40,804 bases of DNA, from positions 1 to 40,804 of the forward strand of contig JAVCCB010000006.1 of assembly GCA_030765685.1 (NCBI GenBank), in the 5' to 3' direction. A program made the translations under genes and the position numbers. Shown here one piece after another: positions 27,964 to 34,958 of the stretch; the stretch's first letter is position 1; each line of letters opens with the position of its first letter. The notes under the pieces are model-generated. The model was not told the origin of the DNA, did not search any database, and saw nothing but the letters and a program-made list of their open reading frames with translations. Source of the DNA: Candidatus Tantalella remota (GTDB taxonomy: Bacteria; Omnitrophota; Gorgyraeia; Tantalellales; Tantalellaceae).

Positions 27964-28917
27964 ATGAAGAAACTAAATACTGAATACAAAATACGTCTGT
28001 CCGCCGAAGCCTTGGCGAAGGAGGAGAATACTAAAAAGCCCTCCTGGATCCGCGCCAAAGCTGTTTCAGGGGATATGCCTCGTAAGGTCACCGAAACAAT
28101 GAACCACCTGGGTCTTAACAGTGTTTGCGAGGAAGCGACTTGCCCTAACAGGGGAGAATGTTGGAGTGACGGTCACGTTACCTTCATGATATTGGGCGAT
28201 GTATGTACCAGAGGCTGCCTGTTTTGTGATGTGAATTTCGGCACGCCGGCAGAACCGGATGCGGGGGAACCCTCAAGGATAGCCACCGGGATAAAAGAGC
28301 TGGATATTAAGCACGCGGTGATAACTTCTGTAACGCGTGACGATCTGGAAGATAAGGGGACCGCGCATTTTGTCGATGTGGTAAGAGAAATAAAGAACAC
28401 CTCGCCCGAGGTCACCGTGGAACTTCTTATACCCGATATGGGAGCGGAGGCGGACCTTATAGAAAGAATAGCTTTTTCAGGGGCCGAAGTCATCGGCCAT
28501 AATGTGGAGATGCCGGAATTCTTATACAAAGAGGTAAGGCCCAGGTCGGATTATTTGCGGACTTTGGATGTTCTCAAAAAACTAAGCTTATTCAGGGATG
28601 AAGGTGGTGCGGATATCTTTGTAAAATCGTCGATGATATTGGGGTTGGGTGAGAGTAGAGCGGATATCGGCTGCACGTTAGAGGATCTTAAGGACGCGGG
28701 TGTAGATATAGTATATATCGGCCAGTATCTTTCGCCTTCAACCGGGCATTGGAATCTTGATAAATACTATGAACCGTCGGAATTCGATGAACTGGCCGAT
28801 ATCGCGCGTAAAATGGGGTTTTGGGCGGTATGTTCCGGTCCCATGGTACGCAGTTCTTATAAGGCGCAGGAGTCTTACCGGTCGGCTCTCTTGACAAGAC
28901 GGTCTTTTGATTTATAA
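27964..28917 (+). CDS. lipA: lipoyl synthase (radical SAM)
   Basis: LipA inserts two sulfur atoms into the octanoyl chain on lipoyl domains, here most likely GcvH. The auxiliary-cluster cysteines are seen in CEEATCPNRGEC near 56-67 and the radical-SAM motif in CTRGCLFC near 82-89. Near the C-terminus is GPMVRSSYKA with the conserved R-S-S. It has 317 residues as written. The first 20 or so codons read through an ATACTGAATAC repeat and then a CCGCCGAAGCCTTGGCGAAG palindrome; conserved sequence begins at KPSWIRAK near 30. The ATG at 27964 lacks a good SD and is close to the nifJ terminator. A TTG near 28012 is an alternative. The true start is uncertain; the enzyme identity is not. Confidence 0.93.
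   Translation: MKKLNTEYKIRLSAEALAKEENTKKPSWIRAKAVSGDMPRKVTETMNHLGLNSVCEEATCPNRGECWSDGHVTFMILGDVCTRGCLFCDVNFGTPAEPDAGEPSRIATGIKELDIKHAVITSVTRDDLEDKGTAHFVDVVREIKNTSPEVTVELLIPDMGAEADLIERIAFSGAEVIGHNVEMPEFLYKEVRPRSDYLRTLDVLKKLSLFRDEGGADIFVKSSMILGLGESRADIGCTLEDLKDAGVDIVYIGQYLSPSTGHWNLDKYYEPSEFDELADIARKMGFWAVCSGPMVRSSYKAQESYRSALLTRRSFDL
27972..28025. repeat. two repeat families inside the lipA 5' coding end
   Basis: ACTAAATACTGAATACAAAA (family A words, about 27972-27991) is followed by the palindrome CTGTCCGCCGAAGCCTTGGC (27997-28016) continuing GAAGGAGGA. The latter matches the 30-nt insert at 14843-14872 and the copy at 19621. Confidence 0.75.
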
Positions 28918-28918
28918 T
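28891..28918 (+). promoter_or_regulatory. consensus promoter of the glycine cleavage operon
   Basis: Perfect TTGACA (28891-28896), a 16-bp spacer and perfect TATAAT (28913-28918). It overlaps the last codons and stop of lipA. Transcription should start near 28925, at the 5' edge of the aptamer-like sequence that follows. Confidence 0.8.
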
Positions 28919-28921
28919 AGT

Positions 28922-29029
28922 GGAGTGTTACTGGCGTTGGCGGACCCCGCGCCCAAAGCGGAGTCCAGTGGATAACCACAAGGAAGCATAGAATCAAAAA
29001 TCGCACGCCTGGGTTTTTGTCCAAAAACC
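28922..29029 (+). ncRNA. candidate ZTP (pfl) riboswitch upstream of gcvT
   Basis: The conserved blocks of the pfl/ZTP motif occur in order: ACTGGCG (28930-28936), the hairpin GTGGATAACCAC (28968-28979) running into AAGGAAGCAT (28980-28989), and CGCACGCCTGGG (29002-29013). GGC of the first block can pair with GCC of the last. Between the first two blocks is a 9-bp hairpin with one mismatch (about 28941-28966). A 7-bp hairpin GGTTTTT/AAAAACC (29012-29018, 29023-29029) uses the last GG of the conserved block and would compete with the aptamer. GATCCC (29030-29035) can also pair with GGGATC (29060-29065) near the start codon. Known ZTP riboswitches control folate and one-carbon genes, which suits gcvT. 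Confidence 0.72.
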
Positions 29030-29083
29030 GATCCCTGTCTTTGACCGGACATATCTAACGGGATCTTGAGTTCAGACATATTT

Positions 29084-30175
29084 ATGACAGATGCAGTTAC
29101 CAGATCAAAACGTACACCTCTTTACGAGTGCCATCTCCGTGCCGGAGGAAGGATAGTTCCTTTTTCAGGCTGGGAGATGCCGGTCCAGTATACCGGGATA
29201 ATAGACGAACATATGCATACGCGCGAGAAAACGGGATTGTTCGATATATGTCATATGGGCGAATTTATCCTTAAAGGCGCTGGCGCGGAGAAAGATCTCG
29301 AACATTTATTTTCTCGCAAGGTCGGAGATATGCTTCCGGGAAAGTGCCGTTATGGGTTTCTCCTGAACGATAAAGGCACTATAATTGACGACATTATTGT
29401 CTTTAAGGTCTCTCCCGAAGAGTTCATGCTTGTAGTCAACGCGGGTACGATAGACAAAGACGCCGAGTGGATAAAAAAGAATATCTCAGAAAGCACTGTT
29501 TTCGCCGATATCTCCGAGTCTACCGCCAAGTTGGACTTGCAGGGTCCGTTATCGGCGGACGTGCTTAAAAAATGTATCGATCCGGCGGTTGTCGAAGGGC
29601 TGAAGCGTTTTTCTTTTACCGACGTGTCCATTGATGGGGTGAAAGTTATCCTCAGCCGTACGGGGTATACAGGGGAATTGGGGTATGAATTATTTTTTTC
29701 TCCGGAATTCGCTTCGAAGCTGTGGGATAAGCTGTTAGTTTTCCCCGAAGTAAAACCTGTGGGGCTCGGAGCGAGGGATACCCTCCGGCTGGAAGAGGGA
29801 TATTCTCTTTACGGCAGCGACATAGACGAAGATCATACGCCCGTCGAAGCGGGCCTTTCGAAGTTCGTTTCGATGGAAAAAGATTTTATAGGCCGTGCCG
29901 CGCTCAAAGAACAGGAAGCCTCAGGCGTCAGCCGCGTTTTGACCGGTTTTATCTGTGAAGGAAGAAGAAGCGCTAGGAGCCATTTTCGCGTAATGGACGG
30001 ATCTCGTGACGCCGGAGAAGTCACGAGCGGAGCTTTTTCTCCCTGTTTGAAAAAAGGTATAGGGTTGTGTTATATTGATAAGGGTCTCGCGGTGGAGAAT
30101 CGCGAAATTTCCCTTATGGACGGAAAAGTGCAGATCGAAGCAAAAGTAAAGAGTCTGCCTATTTATGAGCATTGA
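29084..30175 (+). CDS. gcvT: aminomethyltransferase (glycine cleavage T protein)
   Basis: GcvT transfers the methylene unit from the aminomethyl-lipoyl group of GcvH to tetrahydrofolate and releases ammonia. It has 363 residues from the ATG at 29084. It shows TPLYECH near 10, FSGWEMPVQY near 26-35, FDICHMGEF near 50-58, the folate-site region VVNAGTIDKD near 118-127, and SRTGYTGELGYELFF near 197-211. A TTG at 29066 would add six residues (SSDIF plus start) but has only poorly spaced GGGA. It leads the gcv operon behind the candidate riboswitch. Confidence 0.94.
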   Translation: MTDAVTRSKRTPLYECHLRAGGRIVPFSGWEMPVQYTGIIDEHMHTREKTGLFDICHMGEFILKGAGAEKDLEHLFSRKVGDMLPGKCRYGFLLNDKGTIIDDIIVFKVSPEEFMLVVNAGTIDKDAEWIKKNISESTVFADISESTAKLDLQGPLSADVLKKCIDPAVVEGLKRFSFTDVSIDGVKVILSRTGYTGELGYELFFSPEFASKLWDKLLVFPEVKPVGLGARDTLRLEEGYSLYGSDIDEDHTPVEAGLSKFVSMEKDFIGRAALKEQEASGVSRVLTGFICEGRRSARSHFRVMDGSRDAGEVTSGAFSPCLKKGIGLCYIDKGLAVENREISLMDGKVQIEAKVKSLPIYEH

Positions 30176-30277: not shown

Positions 30278-30292
30278 TTGAATGGAGGCAAA

Positions 30293-30679
30293 ATGATACC
30301 CGGAGAACTGAAATATACTAAAGAACATGAATGGGTCAGGATGGAAGAGAACGAAGTAGTGATAGGGATAACAGATCACGCCCAGTCGCAGCTTGGAGAT
30401 ATAACATTTGTGGAGCTGCCGGACGCGGGTAAGGACGTTAAACAGTCTGATAGCCTTGCCACGGTGGAGTCGGTGAAAGCGGCCAGCGATATTTATGCGC
30501 CTCTTTCCGGCAAAGTGACCGAGGTCAATACCAGCTTGCAGGATACCCCTGAGATGATAAACCAGTCTCCCTATGGCGACGGGTGGGTATGCCGGGTCGA
30601 TGTCGGGGATAAAACTGAGTTGGATGGACTGATGGACGCCGCGGCATACGAGGAGTTTATTAAAGGAACAAGTTCATAG
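30293..30679 (+). CDS. gcvH: glycine cleavage system H protein (lipoyl carrier)
   Basis: GcvH carries the aminomethyl group on a lipoyl lysine between GcvP, GcvT and lipoamide dehydrogenase. It has 128 residues. The lipoylated lysine is K62 in ATVESVKAASDIYAP, and YTKEHEWVR near 8-16 and SPYGDGWVCRV near 91-101 are conserved. I start at ATG 30293, which has TGGAGG at a good distance (5 nt); an upstream in-frame TTG at 30278 would add only MNGGK. The stop codon TAG lies inside the AGTTCATAGTTGATAGTTTG repeat that follows. Confidence 0.95.
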   Translation: MIPGELKYTKEHEWVRMEENEVVIGITDHAQSQLGDITFVELPDAGKDVKQSDSLATVESVKAASDIYAPLSGKVTEVNTSLQDTPEMINQSPYGDGWVCRVDVGDKTELDGLMDAAAYEEFIKGTSS

Positions 30680-30746
30680 TTGATAGTTTGTAGTTTGTTG
30701 TTTTCAAGTCAATGAACTATGAACAACGAACAATGAACAATGAACT
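30674..30746. repeat. palindromic word repeat between gcvH and gcvPA
   Basis: AGTTCATAGTTGATAGTTTG and related words on the left and ATGAACTATGAACAACGAAC plus AATGAACAATGAACTG on the right form a long imperfect palindrome. It is in frame with gcvPA and creates a false upstream start at 30712. Confidence 0.7.
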
Positions 30747-30771
30747 GAAAGTAGTACACGGAGTCGGCAAA

Positions 30772-32115
30772 ATGAGCTATATACCGCATTCTAAAGAAGA
30801 CCGCACGGAGATGCTTAAGGCTATCGGCATCAAGTCTACCGATATGGCGGATCTTTTTAAATGCATACCCGAAAAATTGAGAGCCAGATCTTTTGACCTG
30901 CCTTCAGGTATGTCAGAGCTGGAGGTCGACAAGACCCTCCGGCGCCTGGCGAAGAAGAATGCGACGGATCTTATCACTTTCGTGGGCGGAGGGTTTTATG
31001 ATCATTACACACCGGCGGCGGTGGACGCGGTAGTGTCCCGGTCGGAGTTTTATACGGCATATACACCTTACCAGCCTGAAGCTTCCCAGGGCACGCTGCA
31101 GGCTATATATGAATACCAGAGCTGCATATGCCATCTGACGGAGATGGAAGTTTCGAACGCTTCGCTTTATGACGGGGGAACAGCCCTTTACGAAGCCGCT
31201 ATGATGGCTATGCGTATTACCGGCAGGAACAAGATATTGATGGATGGAGGGGTAAACCCGATATATCGTAAGATGCTGGAATCGTACACGAGTAATCTTT
31301 CCATAGAGTTCGTCGAAATACCGGTCTGTCACGGTCAGAGCCACCGTGACGAGATCGAAAAATATCTAGATGATAAAACGGCGGCAATAATTCTGCAGAA
31401 CCCCAATTTTTTCGGAGTAATAGATGACCACACGGATATTTCTGAGATGTGCCACGCTAAAGGCGCGCTCGTCATAGAAAGCGTTTATCCGGTCTCGCTG
31501 GGGATGTTGAAGACGCCGCGCGAGATGGGGGCGGATATAACTACGGGCGAAGGCCAGAGTCTGGGGATACCCTTATCTTTCGGCGGACCTTATCTGGGTT
31601 TTATCGCGACGAAAAAAGAATATGCCAGGAAGATGCCCGGCCGTATAGTAGGAGCTACGGTGGACAATGAAGGGCGAAGGGCTTTTGTCCTTACGCTGCA
31701 GACAAGAGAACAGCACATCCGCCGGGAAAAAGCCACGTCTAATATATGTTCCAATGAGGCGTTATGCGCGCTGAGGGCGCTGGTTTACATGTGTCTTACC
31801 GGCAGGGGCGGCATAAAAATGGTCGCGCGACTTTGTATGGAAAAGACCGAATACGCGAAGAAGAAACTCAGTAAAGTAAAAGGGGTGGAAGTCAAGACCT
31901 CCTCGCCCACATTTAACGAATTTGTTATAAGGCTTCCGAAGGATCCGAACGAAATAATAGGCAAGCTTATAGACAAGGGTTTCGCGGCGGGGTTTCCGCT
32001 GGGCAGGTACTATCCGGATATGGAAGATTACATGCTTATCGCGGTAACGGAGAAAAGGACCAAGGAAGATATAGACCGTTTTGCCGAAGCTCTGGAGGAA
32101 GTACTGTGGAATTGA
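30772..32115 (+). CDS. gcvPA: glycine dehydrogenase (decarboxylating) subunit 1
   Basis: One half of the split P protein, which decarboxylates glycine and loads the aminomethyl group on GcvH. It has 447 residues from ATG 30772. The start MSYIPHSKEDRTEML is the family's usual N-terminus and GGAG lies 8 nt upstream; the longer frame from 30712 reads only repeat DNA. Conserved segments include FVGGGFYDHYTPAAVD near 71, YTPYQPEASQGTLQ near 100-113 and REQHIRREKATSNICSNEAL near 321-340. It overlaps gcvPB by 10 nt, which suits the obligate heterodimer. Confidence 0.95.
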   Translation: MSYIPHSKEDRTEMLKAIGIKSTDMADLFKCIPEKLRARSFDLPSGMSELEVDKTLRRLAKKNATDLITFVGGGFYDHYTPAAVDAVVSRSEFYTAYTPYQPEASQGTLQAIYEYQSCICHLTEMEVSNASLYDGGTALYEAAMMAMRITGRNKILMDGGVNPIYRKMLESYTSNLSIEFVEIPVCHGQSHRDEIEKYLDDKTAAIILQNPNFFGVIDDHTDISEMCHAKGALVIESVYPVSLGMLKTPREMGADITTGEGQSLGIPLSFGGPYLGFIATKKEYARKMPGRIVGATVDNEGRRAFVLTLQTREQHIRREKATSNICSNEALCALRALVYMCLTGRGGIKMVARLCMEKTEYAKKKLSKVKGVEVKTSSPTFNEFVIRLPKDPNEIIGKLIDKGFAAGFPLGRYYPDMEDYMLIAVTEKRTKEDIDRFAEALEEVLWN

Positions 32116-33566
32116 TATTCGAAAGATCCAGGAAAGGGAAGATAGGTGGCACGTTGCCTCTTAAGGATGTAAACGAAGAGGTCAAGGTGGATCCCGCGTA
32201 TCTGAGAAGCCGGGACGCCCAGCTCCCGTGCGTTTCGGAGCCGGAGGTAGTCAGGCACTTTACCAGGCTTTCAAACATGAACTTCGGGGTGGATTCGCAT
32301 TTTTATCCGCTGGGTTCATGTACCATGAAGTATAATCCCAAGTTTACCGAAAAAATAGCGTTACTTGAAGAATTTACCGCGTTGCATCCCCTGCAGCCGC
32401 AGCTTTTGAAAGGCGCGAAGCTTACCCAGGGCGCTCTTGAGATAATCTATAATCTTGAAGCGGTCTTGAGCGAGATAACAGGGATGGCGGAATATTCAAC
32501 GCATCCCATGGCGGGCGCGCACGGGGAACTCACGGGAGTTATGATGATAGCCGCGTATCACAGGCATAAAGGCAATGTAAGGAAACACATACTTATACCT
32601 GATTCAGGGCACGGGACGAACCCCGCGTCCGCGTCGATCGCCGGGTACGAGGTTAAGGCAATACCGTCGAACGCGGACGGTGTCATGGACCTTGAAGAGT
32701 TCAAAAAAACCCTGAACGAGGAAGTGGCGGCTGTGATGCTGACCTGTCCGAACACGCTCGGAGTTTTTAACCCGCATATAAAGGATATAGCTGATCTCAC
32801 GCATGAAGTCGGCGCACTTATGTATTACGACGGTGCCAACCTAAACGCCATAATGGGGAAAACACGCCCCGGAGATCTGGGGTTCGATGTGGTCCATCTA
32901 AACCTGCACAAGACGTTCGCCACTCCTCACGGCGGCGGCGGTCCGGGGGCGGGACCGGTAGGTGTCACAAAAGAACTCGCGCCGTTTCTTCCCGTATCCA
33001 GAGTAGTAAAAAAAGATGACGGTACTTTTGAGCTTGATTATGATGAGCCGCTTTCGATAGGGTACATAGCTCCTTTTTACGGAAATTTCGGGGTTCTTCT
33101 AAAAGCGTACGCGTATATACTTCTTCTGGGCAAGGAAGGACTTATAGAAGTTAGCGAGAACGCGGTACTGAACGCTAATTATCTAAAGGTAGCTCTGAGT
33201 AAATATTACGACCTGCCGTACGACAAGAACTGTCTTCATGAATTTGTTTTGTCCGTGTCCAGGCAGGCCGAGAAGGGCGTGAGAGCGGTGGATATGGCCA
33301 AAGCCCTTATAGACAAAGGGATACATCCACCCACCATATATTTTCCCATGATAGTGAAAGAAGCCATGATGGTGGAACCTACCGAGACCGAATCCAGGGA
33401 GACCCTGGATCACTTCATAGACGTCATGAAATACCTGGCGGAACTGGCGGAGAAAGAGCCGGAGTTGTTTAAGGATTTTCCGAAGACCGCGCCGGTAGGA
33501 CGTGTCGACGAGGTCAAGGCCGCGAAGGATATGGACGTCGCCTGTCTCAACGACGATAGTCTTTGA
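32106..33566 (+). CDS. gcvPB: glycine dehydrogenase (decarboxylating) subunit 2
   Basis: The PLP-bearing half of the split glycine decarboxylase. It has 486 residues. The PLP lysine is in HLNLHKTFATPHGGGGPG near residue 268. Other conserved stretches are GSCTMKYNPK near 73-82, HPMAGAHGELTGVM near 133, and DSGHGTNPASA near 165. It overlaps subunit 1, sharing 10 nt in a different frame. The two-subunit form is usual in Gram-positive, thermophilic and many anaerobic lineages, in contrast to the fused GcvP of Escherichia coli. Confidence 0.95.
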   Translation: MELIFERSRKGKIGGTLPLKDVNEEVKVDPAYLRSRDAQLPCVSEPEVVRHFTRLSNMNFGVDSHFYPLGSCTMKYNPKFTEKIALLEEFTALHPLQPQLLKGAKLTQGALEIIYNLEAVLSEITGMAEYSTHPMAGAHGELTGVMMIAAYHRHKGNVRKHILIPDSGHGTNPASASIAGYEVKAIPSNADGVMDLEEFKKTLNEEVAAVMLTCPNTLGVFNPHIKDIADLTHEVGALMYYDGANLNAIMGKTRPGDLGFDVVHLNLHKTFATPHGGGGPGAGPVGVTKELAPFLPVSRVVKKDDGTFELDYDEPLSIGYIAPFYGNFGVLLKAYAYILLLGKEGLIEVSENAVLNANYLKVALSKYYDLPYDKNCLHEFVLSVSRQAEKGVRAVDMAKALIDKGIHPPTIYFPMIVKEAMMVEPTETESRETLDHFIDVMKYLAELAEKEPELFKDFPKTAPVGRVDEVKAAKDMDVACLNDDSL

Positions 33567-33644
33567 ACTTCTGCCAAAAAAAAAGGGGTATAAACTCGGA
33601 GGTGTCACGGGTGAAAAACCGTGGAGCTCCACCCTGCAGAGCCC

Positions 33645-34370
33645 ATGATGCTTGTAAAATATTATCCCGAAACGATCGAAGAAAACATCGCCCTCGATGA
33701 GCTTTTGCTTATGAAAGCTGAAAAAGGTGAGGTTGGTGAGACTTTGCGTTTCTGGGAATCAGCAGAGTATAGCGTGGTACTGGGACGCGCTGGCAGAGCG
33801 GAAGAGGAATGTTTTCAGGACAAATGCGCTGATGACGGTGTTAAGGTTGCGCGTAGGGTTTCCGGCGGAGGGACCGTCCTTCAGGGACCAGGGTGCCTGA
33901 ACTATTCCGTGGTACTTTCGTATGACTGTGATGAAAGATATTCGAATATAATCTCTTCTTATGAATGTGTTCTCGGTGAGATAGCGTCGGTTTTTTCCGC
34001 AAAGGGCCCGGATGTGGAATTTTTCCCCGTGTGTGACCTGGCAGTGGGTGGCAGGAAGATCTCCGGCAACGCCCAGGCCAGAAAGAGGAAATATTTTCTT
34101 CACCACGGCACATTCCTGTATGACTTCGACCTGAAAAAGATATCCCGATATTTGAAGATGCCGCCGAAGGAACCGGAGTACCGTTCTGGAAGGCCGCATG
34201 AGAGTTTTGTGACTAATATCTCCATGACTAAAGACGCCCTGGAAGATTCCGTAAAACAAGTGTTGTCGTTCACTCCGGATGAATGGTTTCCGGACGAGGA
34301 GACTTTGCGGGAGCTGGATACACTTATAGCGGATAAGTATTCAAAAGACGATTGGAATCTGGTTTTTTAG
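33645..34370 (+). CDS. lipoate-protein ligase / lipoyl- or octanoyl-transferase family
   Basis: A member of the LplA/LipB/BirA fold family that attaches lipoate or octanoate to lipoyl domains. It has 241 residues from ATG 33645. RRVSGGGTVLQGPGCLNY near 67-84 is the RRxSGGG motif; the catalytic lysine region is GGRKISGNAQ near 135-144, followed by HHGTFLYDFD near 152-161. It lacks the C-terminal accessory domain of the longer Escherichia coli LplA. A Cys (FPVCDL near 130) sits where many ligases have Asn, so an octanoyltransferase role feeding LipA is possible. No LipB-type gene is in the window. An upstream GTG at 33621 would add eight residues encoded by a palindromic stretch. Confidence 0.82.
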   Translation: MMLVKYYPETIEENIALDELLLMKAEKGEVGETLRFWESAEYSVVLGRAGRAEEECFQDKCADDGVKVARRVSGGGTVLQGPGCLNYSVVLSYDCDERYSNIISSYECVLGEIASVFSAKGPDVEFFPVCDLAVGGRKISGNAQARKRKYFLHHGTFLYDFDLKKISRYLKMPPKEPEYRSGRPHESFVTNISMTKDALEDSVKQVLSFTPDEWFPDEETLRELDTLIADKYSKDDWNLVF

Positions 34371-34505: not shown

Positions 34506-34958
34506 ATGAAGAAAGTAGTTATATTTTTGATGATGATGAGTTTCGCTCTGGGGACGACCGCGCATCCTCATTGTCAGGTGCCATGCGGCATATATGATGA
34601 TGATATGAGGTTCGACATGATAGCTGAAGACATAACCACTATTGGCAAAGCGATGGATGAGATAAATAAATTTTCACAGGAAACAGATAAGAACTACAAT
34701 CAGATCGTTAGGTGGGTCGAAACCAAAGAGAAGCATGCCGACAATATAAGTCACACTGTTACTTATTATTTTATGGCGCAAAGAGTCAAACCCGTAGATC
34801 CGTCAGATGTCGCCTCTTATGCGGTGTATGCGAATGAACTGGAGCTTTTGCATGGACTGATGGTCAATGTAATGAAGTCAAAACAGACGACTGATAGTAT
34901 TTATGTGGATAATATGAAAGGTCTACTGGAAGAGTTCTGGGTGGTATATGCGCAGTAG
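34506..34958 (+). CDS. sodN: exported nickel superoxide dismutase
   Basis: Ni-SOD converts superoxide to oxygen and peroxide using a nickel hook made of the first residues of the mature chain. Residues 22-30 read HCQVPCGIY, matching the canonical H-C-x-x-P-C-G-x-Y: ligands H22, C23 and C27, and the gating tyrosine Y30. The rest is the expected four-helix body (150 residues in all). Unlike the short propeptide of actinobacterial enzymes, the N-terminus is a Sec-type signal peptide (MKK, hydrophobic core, GTTA at 16-19), so the enzyme is probably periplasmic. Normal cleavage after A19 would leave an extra His-Pro before H22. No separate maturation protease gene is in the window. AAGGAG lies 6 nt before the ATG. 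Confidence 0.92.
   Translation: MKKVVIFLMMMSFALGTTAHPHCQVPCGIYDDDMRFDMIAEDITTIGKAMDEINKFSQETDKNYNQIVRWVETKEKHADNISHTVTYYFMAQRVKPVDPSDVASYAVYANELELLHGLMVNVMKSKQTTDSIYVDNMKGLLEEFWVVYAQ

Follow-up and report, generated by a model that had tools for sequence, protein, structure and literature searches.

Comparative evidence indicates that the leader upstream of the glycine cleavage (gcv) genes of Candidatus Tantalella remota carries a genuine ZTP aptamer. The reading we favour, with a probability of about 0.8, is that the gcvT-gcvH-gcvPA-gcvPB leader is a ZTP/ZMP riboswitch with its own promoter, which would turn expression on when 10-formyl-THF is short, its output most likely being ribosome access. 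By analogy with the known class, ZMP/ZTP is most likely the ligand and ON the polarity; ribosome access is put forward with less certainty than either. What appears from the comparison of loci to be new lies within the known ZTP class, namely an insert in the J1/2 junction and loss of the overlapping terminator. Coordinates in the table and text refer to the window, the whole 40,804-nt stretch of DNA that was analysed.

The aptamer, its genomic setting and its distribution

The earlier note had described a perfect promoter overlapping the lipA stop codon, and both the consensus boxes and the overlap are borne out, with the stop TAA (28915-28917) sitting within the -10 box. The window holds a single exact TTGACA-N16-18-TATAAT, and none appeared in 100 shuffles. 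From the usual promoter spacing, transcription is expected to start at about 28925, the first base of P1. Downstream of the aptamer, the gcv operon that had been proposed is confirmed by the gene families listed in the table. A nickel superoxide dismutase gene (34506-34958) follows the gcv/lipoate cluster, and pyruvate:ferredoxin oxidoreductase is encoded in the same genome (24308-27895).

Features of the leader and its neighbouring genes
Feature	Coordinates	Strand	Details	Basis
lipA, lipoyl synthase	27964..28917	+		NCBIfam TIGR00510 over cut-off
Promoter	28891..28918	+	-35 TTGACA 28891-28896, 16-nt spacer, -10 TATAAT 28913-28918	Sequence
P1 5' strand GUGU	28925..28928	+	Pairs with GCAU 28986-28989	Model match, covariation
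J1/2 block ACUGGCG	28930..28936	+	CU pairs with GG 28982-28983	
Pseudoknot 5' strand GGCG	28933..28936	+	Pairs with CGCC 29006-29009	Covariation
J1/2 insert, family-specific, 31 nt	28937..28967	+	Hairpin 28942-28966, GGACCCCGCGCCCAAAGCGGAGUCC	
P2 hairpin GUGG-AUAA-CCAC	28968..28979	+		Model match, covariation
J2/1 AAGGAA and P1 3' strand GCAU	28980..28989	+		Model match, covariation
P3	28995..29019	+	CAAAAAU 28995-29001 / GUUUUUG 29013-29019; loop holds CGCC 29006-29009 and U 29010	
Candidate anti-P3 hairpin GGUUUUU-GUCC-AAAAACC	29012..29029	+	Exclusive with P3	Chance level
Hairpin closed by GATCCC/GGGATC	29030..29065	+	29030-29035/29060-29065	Fold prediction only, both folded states
gcvT, aminomethyltransferase	29084..30175	+	ATG 29084 the likely start	TIGR00528 over cut-off
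gcvH	30278..30679	+	Start codon uncertain	TIGR00527 over cut-off
gcvPA	30712..32115	+		NF001696 over cut-off
gcvPB	32106..33566	+		NF003346 over cut-off
Lipoyl/lipoate protein ligase family gene (LplA/LipB-like)	33621..34370	+		PF21948 over cut-off

The three blocks of the pfl motif reported in this leader are present (ACTGGCG at 28930-28936, GTGGATAACCACAAGGAAGC at 28968-28987 and CGCACGCCTGGG at 29002-29013), and the ZTP aptamer read from them is upheld by a match to the Rfam ZMP-ZTP model (pfl, RF01750) and by covariation in relatives. The covariance-model search that had been suggested succeeds in part. The match (28917-29021; E 5.5e-4 in a permissive local scan) is full length, covering model positions 1-86 of 86, but its 33.9 bits lie under the gathering cut-off of 39 bits, a database threshold rather than a structural feature, and a scan of the window at gathering level returned no Rfam match. 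The 31-nt J1/2 insert and the short P1 together offer the best explanation of the low score. Even at E up to 10, the glycine riboswitch model gave no match in the leader. The only other candidate ZTP site in a whole-genome scan, a 16-bit match in coding sequence (E 2.9), was rejected.

A gcvT match was found in 18 of the 19 genomes of the window's family, and the aptamer lies directly upstream in eight of these 18 (G000, G005, G007, G010, G011, G012, G013 and G017), at the same place across eight genera and with a TTGACA/TATAAT promoter, read by eye, ahead of each. The closest named GcvT relatives belong to Candidatus Omnitrophota MAGs. These aptamers in relatives remove the doubt left by the failed Rfam threshold. 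The score under the cut-off could otherwise speak for a chance resemblance of the three blocks in an ordinary leader, a reading that comparative data already contradict and that we consider extremely improbable, given the shared site in eight genera, the covariation and an E of 5.7e-4 against the whole 2.0 Mb genome. Standard annotation overlooks the family's aptamers, with one of the eight passing the Rfam cut-off; relative G012 scores 43.5.

Carriers and non-carriers are intermixed on the GcvT tree, where well-supported branches force at least five changes. The earlier note had counted relatives that keep the gene order and lack the blocks as evidence against an aptamer, and this is half of what we see: the tree includes 17 family members, of which 9 have no aptamer (several of these still with lipA or the promoter), and the carriers covary. 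The closest GcvT relative (G014, locus L019) is without the aptamer and retains both the promoter and a reading frame resembling lipA. At L019, L020, L024 and L028 there is no aptamer, yet a TTGACA/TATAAT promoter stands at the same place before gcvT. We rejected the idea that Rfam had merely overlooked aptamers in non-carriers, as a custom covariance model gave no match at their gcvT loci; searched over 384 relatives, it found further aptamers in the class and none additional in the window's family.

Aptamer architecture and covariation

The leader resembles the ZTP/ZMP class (RF01750) in having P1, P2, P3, a pseudoknot between J1/2 and the P3 loop, the ACUGGCG and CGCCUGGG blocks and a link to one-carbon genes. 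It differs in a short P1 (four pairs only, plus CU/GG) and, along with the rest of the window's family, in a folded J1/2 insert of 27-82 nt and the lack of a terminator overlapping P3. Such terminators are common in the ZTP class, and not universal.

Covariation among related gcvT leaders, which the earlier note had proposed examining, is evident among the aptamer carriers. In an alignment of 21 Omnitrophota loci, gap-free after variable inserts and linkers were cut out, 91.6% of cells in P1, P2, P3 and the pseudoknot are paired and 12 of 21 pairs show two-sided changes, values that none of 500 shuffles matched; the structure was known in advance and the alignment hand-cut on its landmarks, which biases these figures toward the structure. 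Sliding the partners by 1-3 columns lowers pairing to 37-47%. For the nine-locus subset (the window's family plus L118) the figures are 96.3% of cells paired and seven pairs with two-sided changes. The two pseudoknot strands change together, being GGCG/CGCC in the window, GACG/CGUC in L026 and GGUG/CACC in four pfl-linked loci. Taken across the 21 loci, covariation supports P1, P2, P3 and the pseudoknot.

The U that follows the CGCC strand in the P3 loop (29010) is identical in 21 of 21 loci. A U in the P3 loop adjoining the pseudoknot contacts ZMP (PMC7337938), and we infer by analogy that U 29010 would be that nucleotide.

Among Omnitrophota loci, the distance from the pseudoknot strand to P2 is in the insert range in all eight loci of the window's family, 6 nt in L118 (the nearest aptamer-bearing gcvT relative outside it) and 2-8 nt in the other aligned loci. 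Compared with dinucleotide shuffles, the inserts form better folds (p 6e-10 for all eight combined; p 0.017 for the window), and a recognisable two-hairpin form is common to L021, L022, L023 and L025. The whole leader, folded without the pseudoknot, is not unusually stable at its minimum energy (z -0.73). The J1/2 hairpin appears to be a peripheral extension of the aptamer specific to the window's family, and would mean that this aptamer class tolerates a folded insert inside the pseudoknot junction. Neither the insert hairpin nor the terminator-bearing gcvT relatives described below figured in the earlier note.

Expression platform and output

All 11 gcvT-linked loci outside the window's family have a terminator overlapping P3. 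In these, a downstream CCAGGC- or CCCGGGC-type arm, itself followed by a U run, is able to pair with the aptamer's CCUGGGUUUU end; five of the 11 passed a strict scan that allowed no bulge and a loop of at most 8, and the other six, with the same hairpin and a loop of about 10, were read by eye. Overlap of P3 with a terminator arm is the mechanism of an ON switch (PMC7337938), and these loci therefore have an ON layout. In contrast, terminators overlapping P3 are missing from all eight family loci, one of which has a weak 5-bp hairpin separate from P3. The absence of an intrinsic terminator reported for the window also stands, since no terminator-like site was found between 28700 and 29300. 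For the same gene in related lineages, a terminator platform is present in some and absent in others, and the output in the window's family is probably not intrinsic termination.

The proposed anti-P3 hairpin exists, and its -3.8 kcal/mol compares with -0.7 for P3 when the pseudoknot is left out; as a platform, however, it is indistinguishable from chance (p 0.19 as a duplex, 0.52-0.60 by local folding and 0.08 for perfect-hairpin length, against shuffles). A conserved anti-P3 platform was also tried and rejected: pairings found by eye in L018, L021, L025, L032 and L033 gave a combined p of 0.30 in duplex shuffles, and local folding gave p 0.05-0.98. Masking of the start region by the P1 5' strand, seen in the minimum-energy fold, fared no better (p 0.12-0.81). 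The GATCCC/GGGATC pairing lies where the earlier note had placed it, but its supposed covering of the start region is weak, because GGGATC ends 18 nt before the gcvT ATG and no clear Shine-Dalgarno precedes gcvT, although other genes of the window do have one. The starts of gcvH and gcvPA (30278-30712) are likewise without a Shine-Dalgarno; GGAGG occurs at many other window genes.

These results leave the output step as something we can only infer, since anti-P3 pairings are common in shuffled leaders and the window lacks a clear Shine-Dalgarno. A genuine ZTP aptamer could instead act through Rho-dependent termination or RNA decay between P3 and gcvT, which would agree with the missing intrinsic terminator in the window and family loci, the lack of a Shine-Dalgarno to mask in the window, and the finding of no start-masking structure shared by the eight family loci. 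We regard this as rather unlikely. Counter to it, the arrangement at L025 fits masking of the ribosome-binding site: there a GGAGG lying 9 nt ahead of the ATG could be bound by the 3' strand of P3. This pairing is the best hint of a translational output, and by itself is not significant.

The loss of the terminator in all eight family loci, a platform without conserved structure and the complete loss of the aptamer in many family members might also point to a relic, a once terminator-coupled aptamer that still folds and no longer controls gcv. This we consider improbable. Decay would be expected of a relic, whereas two-sided changes have kept the pseudoknot and P3 pairs in the family, including GACG/CGUC, and the promoter start coincides exactly with the aptamer in each carrier. 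We retain the riboswitch reading, in which competition for the 3' strand of P3 would most likely govern whether ribosomes reach the gcvT start in this family.

Proposed role and relation to known ZTP riboswitches

In the proposed mechanism, the leader RNA would start at P1 from its own promoter. When 10-formyl-THF is low, ZMP/ZTP would build up and bind the aptamer, stabilising the pseudoknot and P3, and the stabilised P3 would raise gcv expression; methylene-THF formed from glycine would then restore the supply of 10-formyl-THF. Conversion of methylene-THF from glycine into 10-formyl-THF is an established pathway. The genome has purH, fhs and folD, so ZMP should be made, and the earlier note's logic of gcv control by this class is plausible. 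Raising glycine cleavage when ZMP/ZTP accumulates would cohere with what the riboswitch class does elsewhere.

In many bacteria gcv operons are controlled by the glycine riboswitch (gcvT motif), an unrelated aptamer that senses glycine itself, whereas the ZTP class responds to a folate-stress signal. The leader would provide a direct circuit from folate stress to glycine cleavage, for which control by glycine riboswitches is more familiar. The commonest ZTP targets are purH, fhs, pfl, glyA and folD (PMC2864571), unlike the gcv target of the window. We found no report of a ZTP riboswitch before gcv in the literature searched, which excluded Kim et al. 2015. That paper reportedly defined the class, and it may already record the gcvT link.

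The nearest parallels are the gcvT riboswitches of other Omnitrophota families (L013, L118-L121, L129-L133 and L051), alike in aptamer and gene. They differ in an insert-free J1/2 (2-6 nt at the loci measured) and in a terminator that uses the P3 3' strand. We tentatively raise the possibility that the family's leaders form a distinct ZTP subtype, in which a one- or two-hairpin J1/2 domain would prop up a weak P1, a translational (or Rho) output would replace the terminator, and gcvT would be the sole ZTP site found in the family's genomes.

Glycine cleavage would join the ZTP regulon, and is the most frequent target found in Omnitrophota, with at least 19 gcvT-linked ZTP aptamers (eight in the window's family, seven in f26, two in f21, one in f52, and L051). 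Other targets in the phylum are six pyruvate formate-lyase-like loci, purH-like L135 and NuoE-like L003. The six (L004, L006, L007, L116, L117 and L128) have terminator-type aptamers, mostly with a GGUG/CACC pseudoknot, and the purH-like gene of L135, in another family of the phylum, encodes an MGS domain. At L003 (1501-3084), the genes that follow a terminator-bearing ZTP aptamer are NuoE/NuoF-like (2Fe-2S thioredoxin-like ferredoxin); this target is unusual and may be part of a formate dehydrogenase or hydrogenase.
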